This document shows, piece after piece, positions 3 to 58,660 of a stretch of DNA of 64,000 bases. A program made the position numbers and the translations under genes. Origin of the DNA: Gemmataceae bacterium (GTDB lineage: Bacteria > Planctomycetota > Planctomycetia > Gemmatales > Gemmataceae); the NCBI GenBank assembly GCA_022842245.1, contig JALHPZ010000013.1, positions 62,001-126,000 on the forward strand, written 5' to 3'. Every line of letters starts with the position of its first letter. Positions within the stretch are counted from its first letter, which is position 1. The notes beneath the pieces are model-generated. The model saw nothing but the letters and a program-made list of their open reading frames with translations. It was not told the origin of the DNA and ran no database searches.

Positions 3-950
3 CGCGACCTGGAAGCCGAGATCGGCAAGGTGATCGTCGGCCAACCCGACACGGTGCGCGGCGTGCTCACGTGCCTCTTCGTCGGCGGCCACGTCCTCCT
101 CGAAGGCGTGCCCGGTCTCGGCAAGACGCTGCTGGTGCGCACGCTTGCCTCGGCCCTCGACCTCAAATTCTCCCGCATCCAGTTCACCCCGGACCTCATG
201 CCGTCGGACATCGTCGGCACGACCATTATCAACGAGGACGCCGATGGTCGCCGGCATTTCCAGTTCCAATCCGGTCCGCTCTTCGCGCAAATCGTCCTCG
301 CCGATGAAATCAACCGCGCCACGCCCAAGACGCAATCCGCGCTGCTGGAAGCCATGCAGGAACGGAGCGTCACCGTCGGCGGTACGGTCCACAAGCTCGA
401 CGAGCCGTTCCTCGTTTTGGCCACGCAGAACCCGATCGAACAGGAAGGCACTTACCCGTTACCCGAAGCGCAGTTGGACCGCTTCTTCTTCAAGTTGAAC
501 GTGCCGTTCACGACGCGCGACGAGTTGAACGTGATCCTCGACCGCACCACGAAGAACGAATGGCCGACAGCGACCAAGGTGATGGAAGAGGCCGAGATCC
601 GCCAATGGCAGGACCTTGTGCGCGAGGTGCTCGTCGCCGCCCCGGTCCAGGACTACGCGATCCGCCTGCTGCTCGCAACGCACCCGAACGGCGAGTTCGC
701 GACCGCCGACGCGAACCGCTTCCTCCGCGCCGGCGCCAGCCCGCGCGGGGCGCAATCGCTCATCCTCGCATCGAAGGTCCGCGCGCTCCTCGACGGCCGC
801 TACAACGTCGGATTCGATGATATACGCAACGTCTATTTGCCTGCGATGCGCCACCGTATACTCTTGAACTTCGAAGCTCAGGCCGAGAATGTCTCCCCCG
901 ATTCGGTCTTGGCCGCGATCGCGAACGAAGTGAAAGTGAAAGTCGATTGA
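3..950 (+). CDS. MoxR-family AAA+ ATPase (5' end cut by window edge)
   Basis: MoxR/RavA-type AAA+ ATPase, a family usually thought to act as a chaperone that matures or activates partner proteins. The frame is open to the left edge and reads RDLEAEIGKVIVGQ before the first internal start (GTG at 30), so the true start lies upstream. Visible motifs are Walker A (GVPGLGKT, near 106-129), Walker B (LADEINRA, near 298-321), the family signature around NPIEQEGTYPLPEAQLDRF and a C-terminal lid with GASPRGAQSL. Most MoxR genes are followed by a DUF58 gene; here the next gene is a transporter binding protein, so any DUF58 partner is upstream or absent. Family assignment is firm; the client is unknown. 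Confidence 0.93.
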   Translation, partial: RDLEAEIGKVIVGQPDTVRGVLTCLFVGGHVLLEGVPGLGKTLLVRTLASALDLKFSRIQFTPDLMPSDIVGTTIINEDADGRRHFQFQSGPLFAQIVLADEINRATPKTQSALLEAMQERSVTVGGTVHKLDEPFLVLATQNPIEQEGTYPLPEAQLDRFFFKLNVPFTTRDELNVILDRTTKNEWPTATKVMEEAEIRQWQDLVREVLVAAPVQDYAIRLLLATHPNGEFATADANRFLRAGASPRGAQSLILASKVRALLDGRYNVGFDDIRNVYLPAMRHRILLNFEAQAENVSPDSVLAAIANEVKVKVD

Positions 951-979
951 TTGACGCGGTTCCTCCCACCGTCTACACT
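951..979 (+). promoter_or_regulatory. sigma70-like promoter of the liv-type operon
   Basis: TTGACG at 951-956 and TACACT at 974-979 are separated by exactly 17 bases, close to the sigma70 consensus. The pair lies directly after the stop of the MoxR gene (950) and about 30 bases before the start of the binding-protein gene at 1010. It would allow the transporter operon to be transcribed independently of moxR. Seen by eye only; not tested. Confidence 0.5.
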
Positions 980-1009
980 CGCAAAGGAAACCGGGAGCCT
1001 TTACATTCC

Positions 1010-2254
1010 ATGCCCCTTCGTATCGTACCCGCGTTGTTCCTTGTTGCGTTTGTCGCGGCAGGAATGCTCATTCCCGCCCCGCCGGCCCGGGAAAACTCCA
1101 ACGTCGTCAAAATCCTCTCCAGCATGCCTCGAACCGGTTCGGCCCGCGGGCAGACCGACACCATCGTCGACGGCATCCGCCTCGCGCTAAACGAAGTGGA
1201 AAACCGGATCGACCTCGACGGCAAGACCTATCGCATCGAATACATGGACCTGGACGACGCCACCGCGTCGGCCGGCGACTGGACCAGCGAGCAGGAGGCC
1301 AGCAATGCCCGCCAGGCGCAAAGCGACCCGGACGTAATGGTCTACATCGGCACCTATAACTCCGGAGCCGCAAAGATCAGCATGCCGATCCTCAACCGGA
1401 TGAAGGTGCTGATGATTTCCCCCGCCAACACTTCCCCGGGTCTCACCAAGCCGAACCAGGGAGAGCGGGACGAACCGAAACGCTACCGACCAAGCGGCGA
1501 GGTGAACTACGTCCGCGTCGTGCCCACCGACGACCTGCAAGGCCCCGCCGGCGCGGAATGGTCGCTGGATATGGGCTGCAAACGCGTCTACATCCTCGAC
1601 GATAACTCGGTGTACGGCAAAGGCGTCGCGGATCTCTTCGAGGGCCACGCCCGCAAGATCGGCATCGACATTCTCGGCCGCGAAAGCATCGACGCGAAGG
1701 CGTCCGAGTTCCTCTCGCTCATGACGAAAATCTCGACGAAGAACCCTCAACTCATCTACTTTGGCGGTACGACGCAGACAAAGGCCGGCCAAGTGGCCAA
1801 GGACATGGTGAAAGTGGGGATGAAGGACTGCAAGATGATGGGACCCGACGGCACCTACGAAGTCGCGATGATCCAGTCGGCCTCGGCGGAAGTGCTCAAC
1901 GGCCGGTTCTTCTGCACCTTCGGCGGTCTCACGCCCGACAAACTCGCCGATACGCCGGGAGGAAAGACCTTCGTCGACAACTATAAAAAGTTTTACGGCA
2001 AGGAACCGGGCGAGGCCTACGCCCTCTACGGCTACGAGTGCGCCCGCGTCGCACTCGAGGCGATGCGCCGGGCGAACAAGAAAGATCGAGCCGCCATCTG
2101 CAAGGCCGGCCGCGAGATCAAGGACTTCCCTGGCGTCACAGGAACCTGGTCATTTGACGAAAACGGCGACACCACCCAGCAGGACATGAGCGGTATTGCG
2201 GTTCGCAACGGCCAGTTCGTGTTTGATAAAAAACTCTCCGTCACCCGGAAGTAA
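1010..2254 (+). CDS. ABC transporter substrate-binding protein, branched-chain amino acid/amide family
   Basis: Periplasmic binding protein of the Leu/Ile/Val-binding (Peripla_BP_6, type I) family, the receptor of the transporter encoded by the next four genes. The open frame extends to a TTG at 947, but the ATG at 1010 is chosen because it begins a clean signal peptide (MPLRIVPALFLVAFVAAG) and lies behind a plausible promoter. Of 414 residues, the first lobe begins with VVKILSSMPRTG and DGIRLALNEVEN, followed by ...YILDDNSVYGKGVADLF (second lobe) and MGPDGTYEVAMIQ. The ligand cannot be read from sequence: relatives bind amino acids, amides, urea or aromatic acids. The permease gene begins 24 bases downstream. 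Confidence 0.88.
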   Translation: MPLRIVPALFLVAFVAAGMLIPAPPARENSNVVKILSSMPRTGSARGQTDTIVDGIRLALNEVENRIDLDGKTYRIEYMDLDDATASAGDWTSEQEASNARQAQSDPDVMVYIGTYNSGAAKISMPILNRMKVLMISPANTSPGLTKPNQGERDEPKRYRPSGEVNYVRVVPTDDLQGPAGAEWSLDMGCKRVYILDDNSVYGKGVADLFEGHARKIGIDILGRESIDAKASEFLSLMTKISTKNPQLIYFGGTTQTKAGQVAKDMVKVGMKDCKMMGPDGTYEVAMIQSASAEVLNGRFFCTFGGLTPDKLADTPGGKTFVDNYKKFYGKEPGEAYALYGYECARVALEAMRRANKKDRAAICKAGREIKDFPGVTGTWSFDENGDTTQQDMSGIAVRNGQFVFDKKLSVTRK

Positions 2255-2278
2255 ACCCGATACCGACGGACGCCCCGA

Positions 2279-3244
2279 ATGCTACCCATCCTGTTCGCCG
2301 AAGCCTTCAACTGGACCAACCTCCAGCAACAATGCATTACCGGCCTCACAAGCGGTGCCCTCATCGCCCTGATTGCGCTCGGTTATACGATGGTTTACGG
2401 CATTGTTGAGCTGATCAACTTCGCCCATGGCGACCTCTTCATGCTCGGTTCGTGCCTCGCGCTGACCATCTTCACCGCGTTCGGCCTCGCCCAACCCGGT
2501 GCCATCGACTCTGCCTCGAACGTCACCATCCTCCTCGCCATCGCTTGCTGCCTTGTCGCCGTGCCGATCTTCTGCGCCGGATTGAATCGCTCCGTCGACT
2601 ACGTCGTCTACCGCCCACTGCGCACCGCCCCTCGACTCGCTCCCCTCGTCTCCGCCATCGGCGTCAGCTTCATCTTCATGAACATCGGTCTCTTCTGGGT
2701 CGGCCCGCAGGACGTGAACTTCCCCGATGTCATTCAGGACCGGAATCTCCTTGGCGACGACGCCAATCTTCGATTCACGCTGAAGAACCTGCTTGTCGTC
2801 GGCGTCACCGTTCCTCTCATGATCGCCCTCACCGTCTTCGTGAAATTCACCAGCCTGGGCAAGGCGATGCGCGCCACCGCCCAGAACCCCACGGCCGCCC
2901 GACTGATGGGCATCAATACCGAGTTCGTTATCGGTACGACCTTCCTCGTCGGCGGCGCCCTCGCGGGCTTCGGAAGCGTTGTCTACGCTCTCTACGTCAA
3001 CACCATCAGCTACCAGATGGGATTCCAGAACGGCCTCTACGCCTTCACCGCCGCCGTCCTCGGCGGCATCGGCAACATCCCCGGCGCGGTCCTTGGCGGA
3101 CTGGTCATCGGACTCGTGCAAGCTCTCGGCACCGCCTACATCGGCGCCACCTGGACGAGCGCGATCGTGTTCGCCGTGCTTATCGTCATCCTCGTCTTCC
3201 GTCCGTCCGGCTTGCTCGGCGCGCGGGTCCGGGAGAAAGTATGA
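2279..3244 (+). CDS. livH: ABC transporter permease, LivH type
   Basis: Inner-membrane permease of the branched-chain amino acid/amide ABC transporter family (LivH/BPD_transp_2), 321 residues, the usual length. Typical features are the early GALIALIALGYTMVYGIVELINFAHGD segment, the RALRA-like TAQNPTAARLMGIN cytoplasmic loop that contacts the ATPase, and the C-terminal AAVLGGIGNIPGAVLGGL segment. Around eight hydrophobic segments are visible. It begins 24 bases after the binding-protein gene, and its stop overlaps the start of livM by four bases (ATGA), so the two permeases are probably translationally coupled. Confidence 0.92.
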   Translation: MLPILFAEAFNWTNLQQQCITGLTSGALIALIALGYTMVYGIVELINFAHGDLFMLGSCLALTIFTAFGLAQPGAIDSASNVTILLAIACCLVAVPIFCAGLNRSVDYVVYRPLRTAPRLAPLVSAIGVSFIFMNIGLFWVGPQDVNFPDVIQDRNLLGDDANLRFTLKNLLVVGVTVPLMIALTVFVKFTSLGKAMRATAQNPTAARLMGINTEFVIGTTFLVGGALAGFGSVVYALYVNTISYQMGFQNGLYAFTAAVLGGIGNIPGAVLGGLVIGLVQALGTAYIGATWTSAIVFAVLIVILVFRPSGLLGARVREKV

Positions 3245-4341
3245 ACCGGAAAGTCGGCCCCCGCTGGGCGCTCGTCGTCTTCCTCGTCCTCGCGATCTAC
3301 CCGCTGTTCCCGGCCTTCGATGGCTGGTTCTTCTCGGCCACCGCGCGCAGCCTCGGCGCACAGATGCCGACGCTGTTCATCTTCGCCATCCTCGCAATGG
3401 GGCTGAACCTCGTCGTCGGCAACGTCGGCCTCCTGCACCTGGGCATCGCCGCCTTTTTCGGCATCGGGGCGTACACCATGGGCATCCTGACGGTGCCCGC
3501 GTATCCCTTCGAAATTGGCTTCTGGCTCGCCCTGCCCTGCGGCATCGCCGCCGCCGCCGCCGTCGGACTCTTCATCGGCGTCCCCACCCTGCGCCTCCGC
3601 GGCGACTACCTCGCCCTCGTTACCCTCGGTTTTGGCGAAGTCGTGCGCTTCACCCTGAAGAACCTCGACGCCATCACCGCCGGCACACGCTCCCTCGTGC
3701 CCGTGCCGCCCCCCGCCACGCCCATCCTCACCGTCGACTGGCTCCAGGACTTCCGCCCCTTCTATTACCTCACCCTCGGCTTTCTCGTCATCGTCTACTG
3801 GATGCTCGGTAGCCTTGAACGCTCCAAACTCGGTCGCGCTTGGGTCGCCGTCCGCGAGGACGAACTGGCCGCATCCTGCATGGGACTGAACGTCTCCCGG
3901 CTCAAGCTCTCCGCCTTCATCTGCTCCGCCGGCATCGCCGGTCTCGCCGGCGGACTCTACGCCTCAACCATCACCAGTACTGCCCAACCCGACGCTTACG
4001 ATTTCAACCGATCGATCTTTTTGCTCTGCTGCCTGATCCTTGGCGGCCTCGGCAGCCGAAACGGAGTTTTGCTTGGCGTGTTCCTCCTCTACGGCTTCGA
4101 TCAAATTCTCTCACCGATCGTCGACGAAAAACTCCAACTCGCATACGGTGCGCCGATCCGTCGAGAGTTTCTGGGCATACCGATCTCCGCTCAGATGCAG
4201 ACCTTTGCCGGCTGGCGGCTCTTCCTCTTTGGCGTCGTCTTGATTGTCATGATGCGATATCGACCGTCCGGATTGATCCCGAACGACCGGATCAAGGAAG
4301 AACTGCCGCCCGACCCTGATGCCCGGCCCGCCACGAAGTAA
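3241..4341 (+). CDS. livM: ABC transporter permease, LivM type
   Basis: Second permease of the transporter (LivM), 366 residues. The start is the ATG at 3241 that overlaps the livH stop; the frame is open much further upstream, but that part is only a shadow of livH. Family marks are FAILAMGLNLVVGNVGLLHLGIAAFFGIGAYT, the GDYLALVTLGFGEVVRFTLKN segment, the EDELAASCMGLNVSRLKLSAF ATPase-contact loop and a C-terminal LGGLGSRNGVLLG. LivM pairs with LivH in the membrane and is energised by the LivG- and LivF-type ATPases that follow. The livG start lies 17 bases past its stop. Confidence 0.92.
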   Translation: MNRKVGPRWALVVFLVLAIYPLFPAFDGWFFSATARSLGAQMPTLFIFAILAMGLNLVVGNVGLLHLGIAAFFGIGAYTMGILTVPAYPFEIGFWLALPCGIAAAAAVGLFIGVPTLRLRGDYLALVTLGFGEVVRFTLKNLDAITAGTRSLVPVPPPATPILTVDWLQDFRPFYYLTLGFLVIVYWMLGSLERSKLGRAWVAVREDELAASCMGLNVSRLKLSAFICSAGIAGLAGGLYASTITSTAQPDAYDFNRSIFLLCCLILGGLGSRNGVLLGVFLLYGFDQILSPIVDEKLQLAYGAPIRREFLGIPISAQMQTFAGWRLFLFGVVLIVMMRYRPSGLIPNDRIKEELPPDPDARPATK

Positions 4342-4358
4342 CAGTTGGAGAGCCTCGA

Positions 4359-5651
4359 GTGAGTTTGCTCAGCGTCAAGAACCTGACGATGCGGTTCGGC
4401 GGAATCACAGCGGTGAGCGCCGTCGACCTGACCGTCGAACCCGGAACGATCGTTTCCGTAATCGGGCCGAACGGCGCCGGGAAAACGACGCTTTTCAATG
4501 CCGTCACCGGTATCTACCGTCCAAGCTCGGGCGAAGTCCGCTTCGATGGCGATGAGGTTCGCCGCCCAGTCCGCGCAACGCTGTTCGTTTCATGCGCGAT
4601 CGCCGGATTGCTCACGGCGATGGTCGCATTCCTTGCTGCCGCCGGCGTACAGGAACTGTGGCGGGCGGCGATCACACGCCAGTTCTCCGGTTCGGACGAT
4701 TCCTTCAGCCTCTCGAAAGTGCTCGCGGCCACAGGCGACTACGTTGCCGGCCGTCCCGGTATCGTCCTTAACCGCATCACGAATCGCTGGGAAATCCTCT
4801 CACTCGACGGCAAAACGACCCTCGACGTCGTGGATAGCGAGGCGGAAGCCCGTGAGTTGGCATCTCGCATCGTCCTCGATCAACTGCCGGCGATCGCCGA
4901 GAATGCCAAGCCGCCGATTGTCGTTGCCGGGAAATCGTTCGATGATCCGGCTAAGGCGAAGGTCTTCCGCGACTCCGCCGTCACAGCCCAGGCCGATCGC
5001 GAGAACCTCGTCTTCAACTCGCGTGTCGCCGCAGTCGCCGGGCTGGTGCTCGCGCCGATCGCGATGTTGCTGATCTGGTTGCGCTCCCGCCGCACGCCGG
5101 ACGTGATCGCCCAGGGCGGCATCGCACGCACGTTCCAGAACATCCGTCTTTTCTACGCGATGACAGTACTCGAAAACGTCATGGTCGGGATGGATCGTCA
5201 ACTGACGAAGCACCCGCTGCTCATGGCGCTGGGTTCGCCCGGCCAGCGTCAGGAGGAATGGGACGCGGCCGTGAAGGCGAACGACCTTCTGCAATTCGTT
5301 GGCCTTGGCGGCAAGCACCGCGAGTTAGCCAAGAACCTCGCGTACGGCGACCAGCGACGGCTCGAAATCGCCCGCGCTATCGCCACGAATCCGAAGCTTC
5401 TCCTGCTCGACGAACCCGCCGCCGGGATGAACCCCAGCGAGACCGTCGCCCTTATGGACCTCATCAAGAAGATCCGCGACCGCGGCATCACCGTCCTCCT
5501 CATCGAACACCACATGAACCTGGTTATGGGCATCTCGGACAAAGTGGCCGTGCTCGACTATGGCCAGAAGATCGCGGAAGGGACGCCGGCGGAAGTCAGC
5601 CGCGATCCGAAGGTCATCGAAGCCTATCTCGGCAAGGAAGAGGTGAGCTGA
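4359..5651 (+). CDS. livG: LivG-type ABC ATPase with a membrane-spanning insertion
   Basis: ATP-binding subunit of the transporter, 430 residues against roughly 250 for ordinary LivG. The GTG start is set by the family N-terminus (LSVKNLTMRFGG). The ATPase is complete: Walker A GPNGAGKTT at 36-44, Q-loop ARTFQN ending at about 261, LAYGDQRRLEIARA signature at 328-341, Walker B LLLLDEP at 347-353 and H-loop around 384. Between about 65 and 248 sits an extra block with two hydrophobic segments (about 73-97 and 223-242) flanking about 125 polar residues. It replaces the short loop that normally leads to GIARTFQ. The frame is unbroken on both sides, so this looks like a real domain insertion rather than a frameshift. 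If membrane-inserted, the inserted loop would lie outside the cytoplasm. The stop overlaps the livF start by one base. Confidence 0.88.
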   Translation: MSLLSVKNLTMRFGGITAVSAVDLTVEPGTIVSVIGPNGAGKTTLFNAVTGIYRPSSGEVRFDGDEVRRPVRATLFVSCAIAGLLTAMVAFLAAAGVQELWRAAITRQFSGSDDSFSLSKVLAATGDYVAGRPGIVLNRITNRWEILSLDGKTTLDVVDSEAEARELASRIVLDQLPAIAENAKPPIVVAGKSFDDPAKAKVFRDSAVTAQADRENLVFNSRVAAVAGLVLAPIAMLLIWLRSRRTPDVIAQGGIARTFQNIRLFYAMTVLENVMVGMDRQLTKHPLLMALGSPGQRQEEWDAAVKANDLLQFVGLGGKHRELAKNLAYGDQRRLEIARAIATNPKLLLLDEPAAGMNPSETVALMDLIKKIRDRGITVLLIEHHMNLVMGISDKVAVLDYGQKIAEGTPAEVSRDPKVIEAYLGKEEVS

Positions 5652-6364
5652 TGGCCGCAATTCTGACCATCGACAAGCTCCGCGCCGGGTACGGCCCGAT
5701 CGACGCCCTGCACGACGTTTCGCTCACGGTGGAAGCCGGCGAAATCGTCGCGATGATCGGTGCCAACGGTGCCGGCAAGACATCGACGCTGATGAGCGTT
5801 TCCGGCGTCCTGAAGGCGAGGGCTGGCAGCATCCGGTTCCAAGGGCAGGACATCGCGAAGCTGCCGGCGCACCAGATCGTGAAGCTTGGCCTCGCTCAGT
5901 CGCCCGAAGGCCGCAAGATCTTCCCGCGACTGACCGTGCTCGAGAACCTTCAGATGGGGGCGTTCACGCGGAATGACGCGCCGGGCATCGCGGCCGATAT
6001 CGAGAAGGCATTCGCGATGTTCCCCATCCTGAAAGAGCGCAGGGGTCAGGCCGGTGGCCTACTGTCCGGCGGCCAGCAGCAGATGCTCGCGATCGCGCGG
6101 GCGCTCATGGCACGGCCGAAACTCCTCATGCTCGATGAACCCTCGCTCGGCCTCGCGCCGCAGATCGTCGTGCAGATCTTCGATGTAATCAAGGATCTCA
6201 ACAAGGCCGGCATGTCGATCCTCCTGGTTGAACAGAATGCCCGCATGGCCCTCAGGGTGGCGCACCGTGGGTATGTTCTCGAGACCGGCCGAGTCACCAT
6301 GAGCGACGCCGCCGACAAACTCCTCGTCGACCCGCGTGTGCGGGCCGCGTACCTCGGGGAGTGA
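5651..6364 (+). CDS. livF: ABC transporter ATP-binding protein, LivF type
   Basis: Second ATPase of the transporter, 237 residues, normal for LivF. The start is the ATG at 5651, which shares a base with the livG stop (TGATG). Walker A is GANGAGKTS, the Q-loop region reads GLAQSPEGRKIFPRLTVLENL as in LivF, the signature is LLSGGQQQMLAIARAL, Walker B is LLMLDEPSLGLAP, and LVEQNARMAL carries the switch region. It shows no insertion, in contrast to its partner. The five genes from 1010 to 6364 encode a complete transporter. Confidence 0.94.
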   Translation: MAAILTIDKLRAGYGPIDALHDVSLTVEAGEIVAMIGANGAGKTSTLMSVSGVLKARAGSIRFQGQDIAKLPAHQIVKLGLAQSPEGRKIFPRLTVLENLQMGAFTRNDAPGIAADIEKAFAMFPILKERRGQAGGLLSGGQQQMLAIARALMARPKLLMLDEPSLGLAPQIVVQIFDVIKDLNKAGMSILLVEQNARMALRVAHRGYVLETGRVTMSDAADKLLVDPRVRAAYLGE

Positions 6365-29907: not shown

Positions 29908-31449
29908 ATGAGCCGATTCCGCTGGCCGCTGTCGATCTTGCTGGTTTGCCTGCCGTTGGCTTTGATCGTCTACGGCGTGCGGATTCCGGGCCTTGCGCCG
30001 ACGGAATACATTTCGCCGCGACCGGTGCCGTCGGGTGATCGCGAACTGGCGTGGTTCAACACGACAACATCCGGAGCCTCTTGGGAACGTTTCGTGGCCG
30101 GTGTTCGCCGGGCCGCGGCGGACGATTCGAAACTGCTGGTCGACGATTCCGGCGCGTTCCTCGACCAGACGACATCGGTCCCGGAAATCGTGATCGGCCG
30201 GGTGGGTCACAGCGGTCGGCTTCGCATCCGCTGGTACAAGCTCAGCGGCGACCATCCGCCGCAGTATTGGGTCGAACAACTCGCGCTCCGCGATCCGGCC
30301 CCGCTGGCGATCATCGGCGGCGGCAGCAGCGACCGCGCCCGAGACATGGCGCGTGCCCTCGCCCGACAAACCACCTGGCAAGGGGCCCGTCCGCTCTTCT
30401 TCATCACGAACGCGACAGCCGAGAAGGTCCATTCCGACCAGGACGCCATCGACGGGACTGTGGGCGTCACCTCCGAACTCCTCCGAATCTACGAAGGGCG
30501 GTCCTTTCGCTTCTGTTTCAATAACCGGCAAATGGCCGAGGCGATTCTCGACTTCGTCTGGCAATCGGAAACCTTCCGCCCGCGCCTGCTCGCGGACGAG
30601 GCGCGGTTGGCCATCGGCTCCGGCCTGCTGGCGATTGCGCCGCCCCAGAAGCCAACGGTGTTCTACGTCGACTGGGACGACGACCCCTATTCGAGCGACC
30701 TGATCGGCCAATTTCGCGATTTGCTGTACGCGGAGGGCGGTCCGAAACCGGCACCGGTTTATTCGGGCTGGAAGATTCCGTTCAGCGTGGGCGGCTTTTA
30801 CCGGGCCAACAAACCCGAAGAGGAAGTCGCCGACGCAATCCTGAAGGAATTGAACCGGCTCCCGCCGCAGCGTACGCTCCTGATCCTGCCCACTGCGGCG
30901 GCACCGGCGCGGCGAATGCTGCGCCTCCTCGCGGGCGCGGCACCGGAACTCGGCCGGAAGCTCGTCGTCATCAACGGCGACGGTATGGGCGCGAACACAA
31001 TCCTGCGCGATGGCGAATTCGCCTGGCCCGTGCGAGTCCTCACCATTCCCGTGCTCCTGTTCACGCACAACAACCCGGTCGGTTGGGACGAAGGCGAAAC
31101 CCCCACGGGCGGATTCCCCCTCGCGCCGCCGAACAGCACCGAAGACGTGCTCCATGTCTCCGACATGGTCAAATCGTTCAGCCGGGCCGCGTGGGGAGAA
31201 ACGGGCGATTCCCTGGCGTGGGATGCGAACATCCTGTCGAAACGCCTGCTCGCATCGAAGCCCGCGCTTTTCGACGAGACGGGCAATCGGATCGGCGGCC
31301 GCGGAGAATACATCTGCGCCGTTCGACCACGCACCGACCCCACCGAGGTGGGACTTCCCGAGGCGCGATTCGAAGCATGGCGCCGGGCGCCGGACCGCAG
31401 CTGGCAGCTCGTCCGTTCCCGGACCCTCTCGCCGGGGAGGGAACCGTGA
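29908..31449 (+). CDS. membrane-anchored periplasmic-binding-protein-like protein
   Basis: A 513-residue protein (ATG at 29908, preferred to GTG at 29887) that I do not recognise as a named family. An N-terminal membrane segment (about residues 5-25) is followed by a large periplasmic part resembling a two-lobed type I binding-protein fold: ELAWFNTTTSGASWERFVAGVRRAAADD, PLAIIGGGSSDRARDMARAL, TVFYVDWDDDPYSSDLIGQFRDLL and LVVINGDGMGANTIL. No cysteine lipobox. Its stop overlaps the start of a histidine kinase gene (GTGA at 31446), so it is likely the ligand-sensing partner. The ligand is unknown. A divergent FG-GAP gene lies 117 bases upstream. Confidence 0.75.
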   Translation: MSRFRWPLSILLVCLPLALIVYGVRIPGLAPTEYISPRPVPSGDRELAWFNTTTSGASWERFVAGVRRAAADDSKLLVDDSGAFLDQTTSVPEIVIGRVGHSGRLRIRWYKLSGDHPPQYWVEQLALRDPAPLAIIGGGSSDRARDMARALARQTTWQGARPLFFITNATAEKVHSDQDAIDGTVGVTSELLRIYEGRSFRFCFNNRQMAEAILDFVWQSETFRPRLLADEARLAIGSGLLAIAPPQKPTVFYVDWDDDPYSSDLIGQFRDLLYAEGGPKPAPVYSGWKIPFSVGGFYRANKPEEEVADAILKELNRLPPQRTLLILPTAAAPARRMLRLLAGAAPELGRKLVVINGDGMGANTILRDGEFAWPVRVLTIPVLLFTHNNPVGWDEGETPTGGFPLAPPNSTEDVLHVSDMVKSFSRAAWGETGDSLAWDANILSKRLLASKPALFDETGNRIGGRGEYICAVRPRTDPTEVGLPEARFEAWRRAPDRSWQLVRSRTLSPGREP

Positions 31450-33128
31450 ACGAATCCCCCATCGCGGAGACTGCCGACCGGGCGATCTGGAAGTACGTCG
31501 GCGGCCTCGCCCCGGCCGTGCTCCTCTGGGCGATCCTCGTCGGCTGGCTCGCATGGCAACTCGACGAACGATCGGCCTGGTCGGAGGAGACCGACCGTGC
31601 GACGATCCGTGAGTGGATCGACGAGGCGCGGAATTTCCGCAAGACCCTGCCGGAATTGATCGCTGAATACGTCCGGTACGGCGACGACGACCCGGACAAT
31701 ACCGCCGATCCGCGGCGACGCGAGACGAAAAAGGCGGAATTGCTCGAGCATGTCCGCGCGCTGGTGGAACCCACTCGCGCGTACGTCAACCAACTCCCGC
31801 TTTTCCCGGAGATCTACCGGTTTGAGATCGACATCGCCCCATCGCGCGGCAGGTCCGGCGGGTCCGGCGGGTCCGGCGGGTCCGGCGAGCGTGTGACTTG
31901 GGAAAGTTCCGTACCGCGCCCGGCACGACAAAACAGGGATCGGCTGCAGGTCCTCGAGTACGATCCGGCCGGCGATGGACGCGCGACCATTCGATGCGAG
32001 TACAAATTGCACGCCTTCAACAAACTGCAGCGACAGGAACAGGAACGGCAGCGAATGTCCCTGGTCGCCGGTGCCCTGCTCGCCACGGCCTCCGTACTCG
32101 CCGGCCTATTCCTCGTTCGCTTTCTGAAACGGGAACGCGAGCGCGAAGTCGCACGACTGACCGCTCTCGCCGAGGCCGAATATCGCGAAATCGAATTGCT
32201 CCAGGCGCAACACCGCGAAGACGAGGCCCGGCAGGCCCAGCAGGAATTGAAATCGGAACTGCTCGAACGACAGCTGGAAACGTCCGACCTCCAGCGCCGC
32301 GCCGCCGAAGCGGAAAAGTCGGCGTTCGAGATGAAATCGCAACTCTACGCCAGCATCGGCATCATGGCGGGCAGCTACGCCCACAACATCAAGAACCTGC
32401 TCGTCCGACCGAACGACCTCCTCGCCCGATGCATCGAGGTCAACGGCCTATCACGCGAGCAGGAAGGTATGCTGCACGAAGTCAAATCGACGCTAGGAAC
32501 CGTCACGGACCGCCTCCAACAAATCCTCAAGACCGTGCGCCGCGACCCGTCCAACGCCGAAGTAACGAAACTCGATCTCGCACAATTCGTTCGCGAAGCG
32601 GCGACGACCTGGTTCGACATGGGCCGGGACAAGTGGAAGCTCACGATCACGGCCGACACGCCATCCGAACCCGTTTGGATTGAGGGAGACTACTCCCACT
32701 TGCAGCAAGCCATCGAGAACCTCGTGTTCAATGCCCGCGATGCGACCTTCGAAATGCGAAACCACCTGCGGGAAGCGGCCCGACGGGAGACGGCCGACGC
32801 CGAATCTCGGAAGCAGGCGTTACTCGCCGCCGCGGCGTGGAAGGGCGAAATCGCCCTCGGCGTCCGACGGGATGGCGATCGCGTCGTCCTGACGGTTCGC
32901 GACAATGGCATCGGAATGACGGACGAGGTGCGGGAGAAATGCCTGCTGCCGCAATACACCACGAAGCGGGACAACGCCCTCTACGAAGGCTATTCCGCCG
33001 GGATGGGCCTCGGCCTGTCGTTCGTCGCGATGGTGCTCGAACACCACGGCGGCACCCTCACGATCGAAACGGCCCCTTTCGCCGGCACAACCTTCCGCGT
33101 ATCGTTGCCGCCCGCGAACCCGCCCTAA
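31446..33128 (+). CDS. sensor histidine kinase
   Basis: Membrane histidine kinase, 560 residues, GTG start overlapping the upstream stop. Order: membrane segment (about 18-38), periplasmic domain (about 40-203), second membrane segment (about 204-226), a long charged coiled coil (about 227-300), a HisKA-like box with His313 in GSYAHNIKNLLV, and a HATPase domain with N-box QQAIENLVFNARDAT, DNGIGM and GMGLGLSF. There is no HAMP domain. The periplasmic domain contains a GGSGGSGGSGG run at about 138-147. No response regulator gene lies within reach, so the partner is elsewhere. A MATE exporter gene follows after 44 bases. Confidence 0.88.
   Translation: MNESPIAETADRAIWKYVGGLAPAVLLWAILVGWLAWQLDERSAWSEETDRATIREWIDEARNFRKTLPELIAEYVRYGDDDPDNTADPRRRETKKAELLEHVRALVEPTRAYVNQLPLFPEIYRFEIDIAPSRGRSGGSGGSGGSGERVTWESSVPRPARQNRDRLQVLEYDPAGDGRATIRCEYKLHAFNKLQRQEQERQRMSLVAGALLATASVLAGLFLVRFLKREREREVARLTALAEAEYREIELLQAQHREDEARQAQQELKSELLERQLETSDLQRRAAEAEKSAFEMKSQLYASIGIMAGSYAHNIKNLLVRPNDLLARCIEVNGLSREQEGMLHEVKSTLGTVTDRLQQILKTVRRDPSNAEVTKLDLAQFVREAATTWFDMGRDKWKLTITADTPSEPVWIEGDYSHLQQAIENLVFNARDATFEMRNHLREAARRETADAESRKQALLAAAAWKGEIALGVRRDGDRVVLTVRDNGIGMTDEVREKCLLPQYTTKRDNALYEGYSAGMGLGLSFVAMVLEHHGGTLTIETAPFAGTTFRVSLPPANPP
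31852..31887 (+). repeat. four perfect tandem nonamers inside the histidine kinase gene
   Basis: GGTCCGGCG is repeated four times head to tail without a mismatch, in frame, and encodes the Gly-Gly-Ser run of the kinase periplasmic domain. Perfect repeats in a third-position GC-rich gene suggest recent slippage; copy number may vary without breaking the frame. Confidence 0.95.
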
Positions 33129-33173
33129 TCCGCGAGTGTCCGGTCCCCTTTCCGCTCCCACGAAACGGATTCG

Positions 33174-34553
33174 ATGGATTCCTTCAGCCCGGTACCGGCG
33201 GTCGACTGGCGGCGAGTGATCGTACTCGCCCTGCCCGCCCTCGCGCAGCAATACCTCGTGCTGTTCATCCAGCACTATGACCAGTTCCTGGCCGAGGGAT
33301 TCAGCGAAGCCCACAAGGCGGCGCTGAACACCGCGAACTATATCTACTGGCTGACGACCTGCTACGCGATCGTGGTCAGCGCCGGCGCCACCGCACTCGT
33401 GGGGCGATTCTTCGGGGCCGGCAACCGGAAAATGGCCGACCATGCGTGCGGGCAGGCGATCCTCCTCGCGATCCTGCTGGGCCTCGGTGCCACGGCCCTC
33501 GTGCTGCCGTTCCTTCCTGAACTCCTCGCTCCGCTCAACCTCAAGGACGGCGCCGCGTCGATCGCGGCCGAATACCTGGCCCCGCTCGTGCTTCTCCTCG
33601 TGTTGCAACTGGTGGAAACCGGCGGCATCGCCTGCCTCATCGGTGCGGGCGACACGCGTACGGGGTTGTACGTTCTGTGCGGCGTCGCCCTCGTCAACGT
33701 ACCCGTCGCCTATGCGCTGTCCCGCGATCTGTTCGGGACGAATCTGGGATTCGTCGGCATCGCATGGGGCACCGCGATCAGCCACTCCGTCGGCGGATTG
33801 ATCGTGTTGACCTTGCTCGTTCGCGGCCGCTCTGGGTTAAAGCTGACGATCGCGAACCTCAAGCCCGACTTCCCGTTACTGGCGCGTTTGCTGCGAGTCA
33901 GCGTGCCGGCGGCGATCGACAGCATGTCGATCGCGCTCTGCCAGTTGTGGTTCCTGCGGATCGTCAACGATCTGGGGAACGCGGCGGCGGCGGCGCACGG
34001 CATCGCGCTGCGGTGGGAAGCGTTCGGCTATCAGGCCGGCGGCGCGTTCGGCACCGCGTCGATGGCGCTCGTCAGCCAGAACCTCGGCGCGGGCCGGCCC
34101 GCCGAAGCGGCCCGCGGCGGCTGGATGATGTTCGCGCTCGCGTGCGGGGTCATGTCGTTCATGGGCGTGATGTTCTGGCTCTTCGCGTGGCCCATGTGCC
34201 GCTTCTACGCGGGTTCCGAAGTGGTGTCCGCCCTCGGCGTGCAAGCCTTGCGGACCGTCGCCTTCGCCATGCCCGCGCTCGCCTCCGCCATCGTCTTCAC
34301 GCAGGCCCTCCGCGGTGCCGGCGATACCCGCGTGCCCGTGCTCTTCTCCTGGACCGGATTTCTCGTCGTCCGCATCCCGCTCGCGTACCTGCTCACCAGC
34401 CGTGAACTGGACCTCGGCCCGTTCGGCATCGTTCACGGCTACGACTGGGGACTCTTCGGCGCCTGGATCGCGATGCTCGCTGACATCTGGATACGTGGTT
34501 TCTTGTTCCTGATCCGATTTGCCGGCGGGAAGTGGAAACGGATAAAGGTCTGA
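33174..34553 (+). CDS. MATE family multidrug/metabolite exporter
   Basis: MATE-type (MatE) cation-coupled exporter, 459 residues with about twelve hydrophobic segments in two halves. The first half includes RVIVLALPALAQQYLVLFIQHYDQFL and AGATALVGRFFGAGNRKMADHACGQAI; the second begins near LLRVSVPAAIDSMSIALCQLWFLRIVNDLGNAAAAAHGIALRWEAFGYQAGGAFGTASMALVSQNLGAG, as in NorM/DinF-like proteins. The substrate cannot be predicted. It is 44 bases downstream of the histidine kinase gene, possibly in the same operon. Its stop is immediately followed by the stop of the DUF1501 gene on the other strand. Confidence 0.92.
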   Translation: MDSFSPVPAVDWRRVIVLALPALAQQYLVLFIQHYDQFLAEGFSEAHKAALNTANYIYWLTTCYAIVVSAGATALVGRFFGAGNRKMADHACGQAILLAILLGLGATALVLPFLPELLAPLNLKDGAASIAAEYLAPLVLLLVLQLVETGGIACLIGAGDTRTGLYVLCGVALVNVPVAYALSRDLFGTNLGFVGIAWGTAISHSVGGLIVLTLLVRGRSGLKLTIANLKPDFPLLARLLRVSVPAAIDSMSIALCQLWFLRIVNDLGNAAAAAHGIALRWEAFGYQAGGAFGTASMALVSQNLGAGRPAEAARGGWMMFALACGVMSFMGVMFWLFAWPMCRFYAGSEVVSALGVQALRTVAFAMPALASAIVFTQALRGAGDTRVPVLFSWTGFLVVRIPLAYLLTSRELDLGPFGIVHGYDWGLFGAWIAMLADIWIRGFLFLIRFAGGKWKRIKV

Positions 34554-57415: not shown

Positions 57416-58660
57416 ATGTCCCAACCCCAGACGCAATCGCTTTTGCGAGACGGCATCGCCGCCGCCCAGGCCGGCGGGAAGACGCGGGCGCGGAGACTCA
57501 TCCGTCAGGTCGTCGATCAGGAGCCGGGAAACGAAACGGCCTGGCTCTGGCTGGCGAACCTGGCCGCAGACCCCGCCGAAGCGCTCTTGAGTCTGCGCAC
57601 GGTCCTGAAGATCAATCCGGAGAATCGCCACGCGAAGGCCGGCCTCGTGACCGCGATCGTCCGGGTCGCCGTCGACGCCACGCAGGCGAAGGATTTCCCC
57701 CAGGCTCGGCAACTGCTCCGCGAAGCGCTCGAACTCGATCCCAATCACGAACACGCCCTGCTCTGGTCCGCCGGCGTGGCGGTGTACCCGTCCGATTCGA
57801 TTCGTTTCCTCCGCCGGGCACTGGAGGTCAATCCCGATAGCGAGCGTGCCAAGCTGGGTCTTGCCCAGTTCCAGGACGAATTCGGCTCGTGGACCTGCCC
57901 CTTGTGCGAGGCGCCTGGCCGGGAATCCTCGGACCGCTGCCCGACCTGCCGGGCCGTGCTGACACTCGGCGATCCTACGGCATTCGATTCACCGACCGGC
58001 GCGGACGAGACGGCGATGGGCCGTGCGATCGCCCGACTGACCCCGCTCGCGCAGAAAGCCCCCGGCGGACCGGACGCGTTCCGATTGGGCCTCGCGTACC
58101 TGAACATCGGCCAGCCGACCGAAGCTATCAAGGTGTTCAACGCCGCCGCGACCCGGCCCGACGCCGACGCCATGTGGAAGACGGGCGTGACCAAACTGGC
58201 CGCCCACTGGCGGCAGACCGGTGCGAATCGGCCCGCCAAGGCGGAACCGGCCGCGGGTGGACCGCCGCTGATTTTCGTCGTGGACGACAGTGCGACCGTT
58301 CGCAAACTCGTTACCGTGGCCCTGCAGGATGCCGGATATCGCGTCGTCAGCTTCGCCGACGGCTTGCAGGTCGCCGACGGGATCAAAGCGCACGGGGTGC
58401 CGGCGCTGGCGATCCTCGATATCGCCATGCCGGGCCTCGACGGCTTCCAGGTCTGCACCCTCCTTCGCAAGAACCCCGCCACCGCGAAAGTCCCGATGTT
58501 CTTCCTGACCGGCAAGGACAACTTCCTGAATCGGATGCGCGCCAAATGGGCCGGCGCCGTCGAATACCACACCAAGCCGTTCCAACCGAAATCGCTCGTC
58601 GCGATCGTGGAACGGCATGTTCCGCTCCCGATCCGTCATCCAGTCGCAGTGTCGAATTGA
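57416..58660 (+). CDS. TPR-zinc ribbon-receiver fusion protein
   Basis: A 414-residue response-regulator-like protein. The first about 160 residues are TPR-like helices (ALLSLRTVLKINPENRHAKAGL; ARQLLREALELDPNHEHALLW). A zinc-ribbon follows (CPLCEAP... CPTC, about 161-181), then another TPR segment and a C-terminal CheY-like receiver (about 285-405) with acidic VVDDSATVRKLV, phosphoacceptor Asp in LDIAMPGLDGFQ, Thr in FFLTGKDN and Lys in HTKPFQP. Receiver-end proteins of this kind resemble PilG/PilH-like regulators. Phosphorylation is likely possible; the output is unknown. A 202-residue unknown gene follows after 37 bases. Confidence 0.88.
   Translation: MSQPQTQSLLRDGIAAAQAGGKTRARRLIRQVVDQEPGNETAWLWLANLAADPAEALLSLRTVLKINPENRHAKAGLVTAIVRVAVDATQAKDFPQARQLLREALELDPNHEHALLWSAGVAVYPSDSIRFLRRALEVNPDSERAKLGLAQFQDEFGSWTCPLCEAPGRESSDRCPTCRAVLTLGDPTAFDSPTGADETAMGRAIARLTPLAQKAPGGPDAFRLGLAYLNIGQPTEAIKVFNAAATRPDADAMWKTGVTKLAAHWRQTGANRPAKAEPAAGGPPLIFVVDDSATVRKLVTVALQDAGYRVVSFADGLQVADGIKAHGVPALAILDIAMPGLDGFQVCTLLRKNPATAKVPMFFLTGKDNFLNRMRAKWAGAVEYHTKPFQPKSLVAIVERHVPLPIRHPVAVSN

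Follow-up and report, generated by a model that had tools for sequence, protein, structure and literature searches.

A membrane-anchored binding-protein-like gene and a histidine kinase inherited together in the Gemmatales as a probable two-part receptor

Binding proteins and sensor kinases are known to work together in several bacterial systems, and the complexes formed by LuxP-LuxQ, TorT-TorS and XylFII-LytS have been solved (PMC6321045). Encoding a binding protein next to a kinase does not by itself define such a system, as three binding proteins are encoded near the Pseudomonas kinases AgtS and AruS, and a 2024 study found no evidence that they activate them (PMC11113362). Adjacency alone is therefore weak evidence; in the present case co-inheritance is added to it.

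The locus described here belongs to a planctomycete of the order Gemmatales with a 6.4 Mb genome; Limnoglobus, Fimbriiglobus, Gemmata and Zavarzinella are among the close relatives that the named genome collection contains. Members of this order have an unusual cell architecture, and to our knowledge little is known about their core signalling. Like the three solved systems, the locus pairs a binding protein of type I with a membrane-bound kinase possessing a periplasmic domain of its own. Unlike them, the binding protein (the product of gene A) has no detectable sequence kinship to profiled binding-protein families, is tethered by an N-terminal helix and finds its nearest folds in LivJ/LivK/AmiC-type proteins, and the kinase has neither a HAMP domain nor a linked response regulator.

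The first-pass annotation of the window, which is the whole stretch of 64,000 nucleotides that was analysed, had grouped gene A and the kinase with a MATE exporter gene as a possible sense-and-export unit. Its three open reading frames are present (A from 29908, the kinase from 31446 and the MATE gene ending at 34553), as is the four-base overlap of A with the kinase start, which reads GTGA; the gap before the MATE gene, given as 44 bases, measures 45. A gene with FG-GAP repeats lies upstream of A on the opposite strand, and DUF1501 and PSD1/PSCyt planctomycete genes lie downstream, convergent with the MATE gene. The features are the following.

29908..31449, + strand: gene A, membrane-anchored and binding-protein-like, 513 amino acids (open reading frame, hydropathy, AlphaFold2, VIA-align, order-wide conservation)
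31446..33128, + strand: histidine kinase with a GTG start, 560 amino acids (open reading frame, HATPase_c, conserved H, N and G motifs, co-inheritance with A)
31563..32048, + strand: predicted periplasmic sensor domain of the kinase, residues ~40-201, family-specific (between the two transmembrane segments; conservation; AlphaFold2)
32130..32345, + strand: predicted long charged helix or coiled coil leading from the second transmembrane helix to the kinase core, without HAMP (AlphaFold2)
32382..32384, + strand: codon for His313, the predicted phospho-acceptor, within the motif GSYAHNIKNLLVRP (invariant in 65 members; 5idj match)
33174..34553, + strand: MATE exporter gene, 459 amino acids (PF01554/TIGR00797), a neighbour in this lineage only and outside the unit

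An argument for a functional pair comes from the distribution of the two genes. Gene A is present in 91 of the 102 Gemmatales genomes (68 of the 71 of good quality, 43 of 44 genera) and the N-terminal sensor part of the kinase in 87, with one locus of each in nearly all genomes of the order. Not one of the 102 genomes has the sensor part without A. Furthermore, a profile search found the sensor part to be absent from all 11 genomes of the order that lack A, and these include three with a completeness of 100, 95 and 90%. Four genomes have A without a detected kinase; in two of these (G043 and G059) the locus reaches a contig edge, in a third (G003) A itself is partial, and in the fourth (G067) a contig end offers no clear explanation for the missing kinase. 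Of the 87 genomes that have both genes, 80 carry the kinase directly behind A in the same orientation, and in the remaining seven the two are on separate contigs. In at least two of these seven (G001 and G005) both genes lie well inside their contigs, unlinked yet both retained.

A similar picture is obtained from the named genome collection, where the kinase family occupies 72 loci, below which the matches fall sharply to ordinary kinases of other phyla (L143-L150, E ~1e-15 to 1e-12). A lies immediately upstream of the kinase at 63 of the 68 named loci that leave room for it. With start codons picked by script, the commonest spacing is the 4-base overlap (30 of 56 pairs), and the spacing is 60 nt or less in 53 of the 56. 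Its recurrence throughout the order puts this arrangement far beyond what chance would produce, and the joint gain and loss of the genes, together with their translational overlap order-wide, makes the pairing much stronger than proximity alone. Distances in A and in the kinase are correlated (r 0.94); this was set aside as evidence, since both proteins follow the species tree. Outside the order, the A profile matched none of 391 other sampled planctomycete genomes and the N-terminal part of the kinase none of 293, in searches that scored few candidates per genome and that very remote relatives could escape.

Protein A carries a single N-terminal hydrophobic segment (residues 3-31 by hydropathy) that serves as its membrane anchor, and the AlphaFold2 model computed with 61 sequences (pLDDT 89.5, pTM 0.88) folds residues ~42-501 as a type I periplasmic binding protein. 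Its best VIA-align match is 4mlc (Z 26.0, 319 residues, 3.1 Å), 3td9 (LivK) scores Z 25.8 and AmiC Z 22.9, and the Foldseek matches also include the ligand-binding domains of metabotropic glutamate receptors. The description of A as membrane-anchored and binding-protein-like thus holds, and on the strength of the model it can be assigned with confidence to the LivJ-type (type I) periplasmic binding proteins, here on a predicted membrane anchor.

Known families do not recognise A. Nothing significant was found in Pfam or NCBIfam, the Pfam scan of 61 family members gave no match at the curated cut-offs, that of Peripla_BP_6 (PF13458) included, and a search of the genome with PF13458 retrieves another gene and not A. 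In addition, a profile search of PDB sequences with A yielded no match, and comparing A with LivJ by single-sequence profile was unsuccessful. A adds a binding-protein family that is missed by present databases. A weak colinear match over both lobes does emerge when the profile of A is aligned with that of Peripla_BP_6 proteins from related genomes (E 3e-4, probability 38.7%), and in this low-probability alignment S141 of A falls on Ser79 of LivJ and D358 on Glu226. T170 is paired with Ala101, a single column before Thr102; bringing the ATA motif that the two proteins share into register would place it on Thr102. Among the 61 members, position 141 is always Ser or Thr, position 170 always Thr or Ser and position 358 always Asp. 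In LivJ, Ser79, Thr102 and Glu226 hold the bound amino acid, and the ligand of A is perhaps amino-acid-like.

Compared with LivJ and LivK (PF13458 Peripla_BP_6), A thus has the same fold (Z 25-26) and possibly shares the Ser/Thr/acid ligand positions of LivJ, whereas it falls below every Pfam cut-off, is ~150 residues longer, is membrane-anchored and is encoded apart from liv permease genes. With AmiC of the Pseudomonas amidase operon, which is the cytoplasmic partner of AmiR, it shares the fold class and probably a use in signalling rather than in transport. Unlike AmiC, A is predicted to sit on the outer side of the membrane, and the protein it is paired with is a kinase.

The kinase has two hydrophobic segments (14-39 and 203-228 by hydropathy) that enclose a domain of ~160 residues, which confirms that it has a periplasmic domain of its own. 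AlphaFold2 predicts three helices followed by four strands for this sensor domain, in which E56, W57, R62, P118, F120 and W152 are invariant, and the linker towards the core is predicted as helices 191-250 and 259-331, partly with low confidence. The absence of HAMP, which had also been noted at first, extends to all 65 family members searched, in which Pfam finds no match. Pfam detects HATPase_c and no HisKA in the kinase, and its DHp-CA core is complete, with the catalytic motifs retained. By sequence, this core is nearest to that of CckA (DHp-CA structure 5idj, E 4e-21), and by structure it matches HK853 (Z 20.6) as well as CckA and others. The likeness to the CckA/NtrB-type histidine kinases is confined to this core, where CckA (5idj) gives the best alignment; the Gemmatales kinase differs from them in its own H-box, AHNIKN, in its family-specific periplasmic domain and in having neither a PAS nor a receiver domain.

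No response regulator was found to be conserved near the A-kinase pair among the loci examined. In the window the nearest one (58271-58609) is ~25 kb away from the pair, in agreement with the initial remark that none is nearby. The host genome contains 48 receiver domains, none of which could be assigned to the kinase, and its partner is therefore presumably encoded elsewhere in the genome. A regulator right behind the kinase was seen in one genome only (G095), where an NtrC-like gene on the opposite strand (L049:9915-11336, -) is convergent with the kinase and abuts it; its product apparently lacks the usual GAFTGA loop. Relatives of this regulator with 28-36% identity occur in 19 of the 102 genomes of the order at the threshold used, and at that threshold the type is absent from the host genome. 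As a general partner of the kinase the NtrC-like regulator was rejected, given this limited occurrence and the fact that it is not found behind the pair elsewhere.

We propose, with a probability of roughly 0.7, that A and the kinase form a single two-part transmembrane receptor, which passes a ligand signal through the kinase to a regulator encoded elsewhere and does not include the MATE exporter. The N-terminal helix of A would hold the protein at the outer face of the cytoplasmic membrane, where the two lobes of its LivJ-type fold would bind a small molecule between them. The opening or closing of A would be relayed to the periplasmic domain that is specific to this kinase family. From there the signal would run through the second membrane helix and the long coiled coil, without HAMP, to the kinase core, where His313 would become phosphorylated and its phosphate would be transferred to the distant response regulator. 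By analogy, LuxP-LuxQ, TorT-TorS and XylFII-LytS provide the best model for how such a pair might work. Direct contact between A and the kinase, ligand-driven signalling and an amino-acid-like ligand are features that we infer, the last because Ser, Thr/Ser and an invariant Asp stand at or near the amino-acid positions of LivJ.

An order-wide, single-copy receptor that is not found in other sampled planctomycetes would be a good candidate for a regulatory input that defines the lineage. The fuller version of this idea, that a receptor exclusive to the Gemmatales, retained in single copy by nearly all of them, uses a tethered LivJ-type protein to sense an amino-acid-like molecule and thereby drives a core regulatory pathway through a kinase class that has a periplasmic domain of its own, is speculative, and we regard it as doubtful. 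No description of the A-kinase pair in Gemmatales was found in the open-access papers searched.

Several clade-specific genes recur around the pair. In 11 loci (including L073, L078, L082, L087, L088, L090, L095, L109 and L140) a co-directional gene for an MBOAT O-acyltransferase precedes A by 15-173 bases; in most of these it is itself preceded by the gene of a presumed SGNH-type partner, for which Pfam gives no match. This order suggests a polymer-acetylation operon in that clade. A glucose-6-phosphate dehydrogenase gene is head-to-head with A, within ~130 bases, at 15 of the 60 named loci that have A (L137:6610-9914 and 14 others), and a 'lysine decarboxylase' (LOG-type) gene follows the kinase at 13 loci; glucose-6-phosphate dehydrogenase, the pair and the LOG-type gene possibly represent an older gene order. 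Behind the kinase, a convergent uracil-DNA glycosylase gene is found at 11 loci. No function was read from the O-acyltransferase, glucose-6-phosphate dehydrogenase or LOG-type neighbours because they are clade-specific.

The alternative that survives best gives A a structural or inhibitory role towards the kinase: it would be a degenerate binding protein without a small-molecule ligand and would gate the kinase through protein contact, for instance in sensing the state of the cell envelope. This reading would fit the lack of accompanying transporter genes, the drift of the family past every Pfam profile, the invariant residues peculiar to the family (W109, R201, W373 and H387 among them) and the position of A behind an O-acyltransferase gene of the cell-surface polymer-modifying kind in those 11 loci. 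However, all members of the family keep the two-lobed fold and the hydroxyl and acidic positions of the amino-acid site, and we consider this alternative unlikely.

More unlikely still is that A serves as receptor for an ABC importer whose genes lie elsewhere, with the kinase sensing a ligand of its own and the operon ensuring co-expression only. The fold of A is indeed that of ABC-importer receptors, but neither a permease nor an ATPase gene is among the recurrent neighbours identified, A is membrane-anchored and unrecognised by the importer families, and the two genes are gained and lost together.

That A, the kinase and the MATE protein form a sense-and-export unit, in which an externally bound compound induces its own export, is hardly credible, for although the three genes share one strand with spacings of -4 and 45 bases and a simple scan found no terminator-like site in the 45-base gap, the MATE gene adjoins the pair only in the host and in one sister genome. 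The gene, whose product matches MatE (PF01554/TIGR00797), is single-copy in 89 of the 102 genomes of the order, and it lies beside the pair in just two of these 89, the second (G053) being 94-98% identical to the host in A and the kinase. Within the genus, Limnoglobus (G052) carries the pair and the MATE gene 5.7 Mb apart on its single chromosome, at 2.86 and 8.54 Mb respectively, and the 38 other pair loci examined, most of them 14-16 kb long, all lack it. The MATE gene is thus a chance neighbour outside the unit, and the apparent link to an exporter is a local accident. Of the three-gene cluster first suggested, the A-kinase part stands (adjacent in 80 of 87 genomes) and the MATE part does not. 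Similarly, the fold of A, co-inheritance and co-translation support the idea that a ligand is sensed outside the cell, whereas the coupling to export fails on the unrelated distribution of the MATE gene, an outcome that the first-pass annotation had itself named as refuting it.

Two further loci of the window deserve mention. The protein encoded at 57416-58660 combines TPR-like repeats, a zinc-ribbon-like CxxC motif and a C-terminal receiver domain. At 947-6364 there is a complete liv-type ABC uptake operon with a binding protein (947-2254), permease and ATPase genes, and the 947-2254 product is the only recognised Peripla_BP_6 protein of the genome, distinct from gene A.
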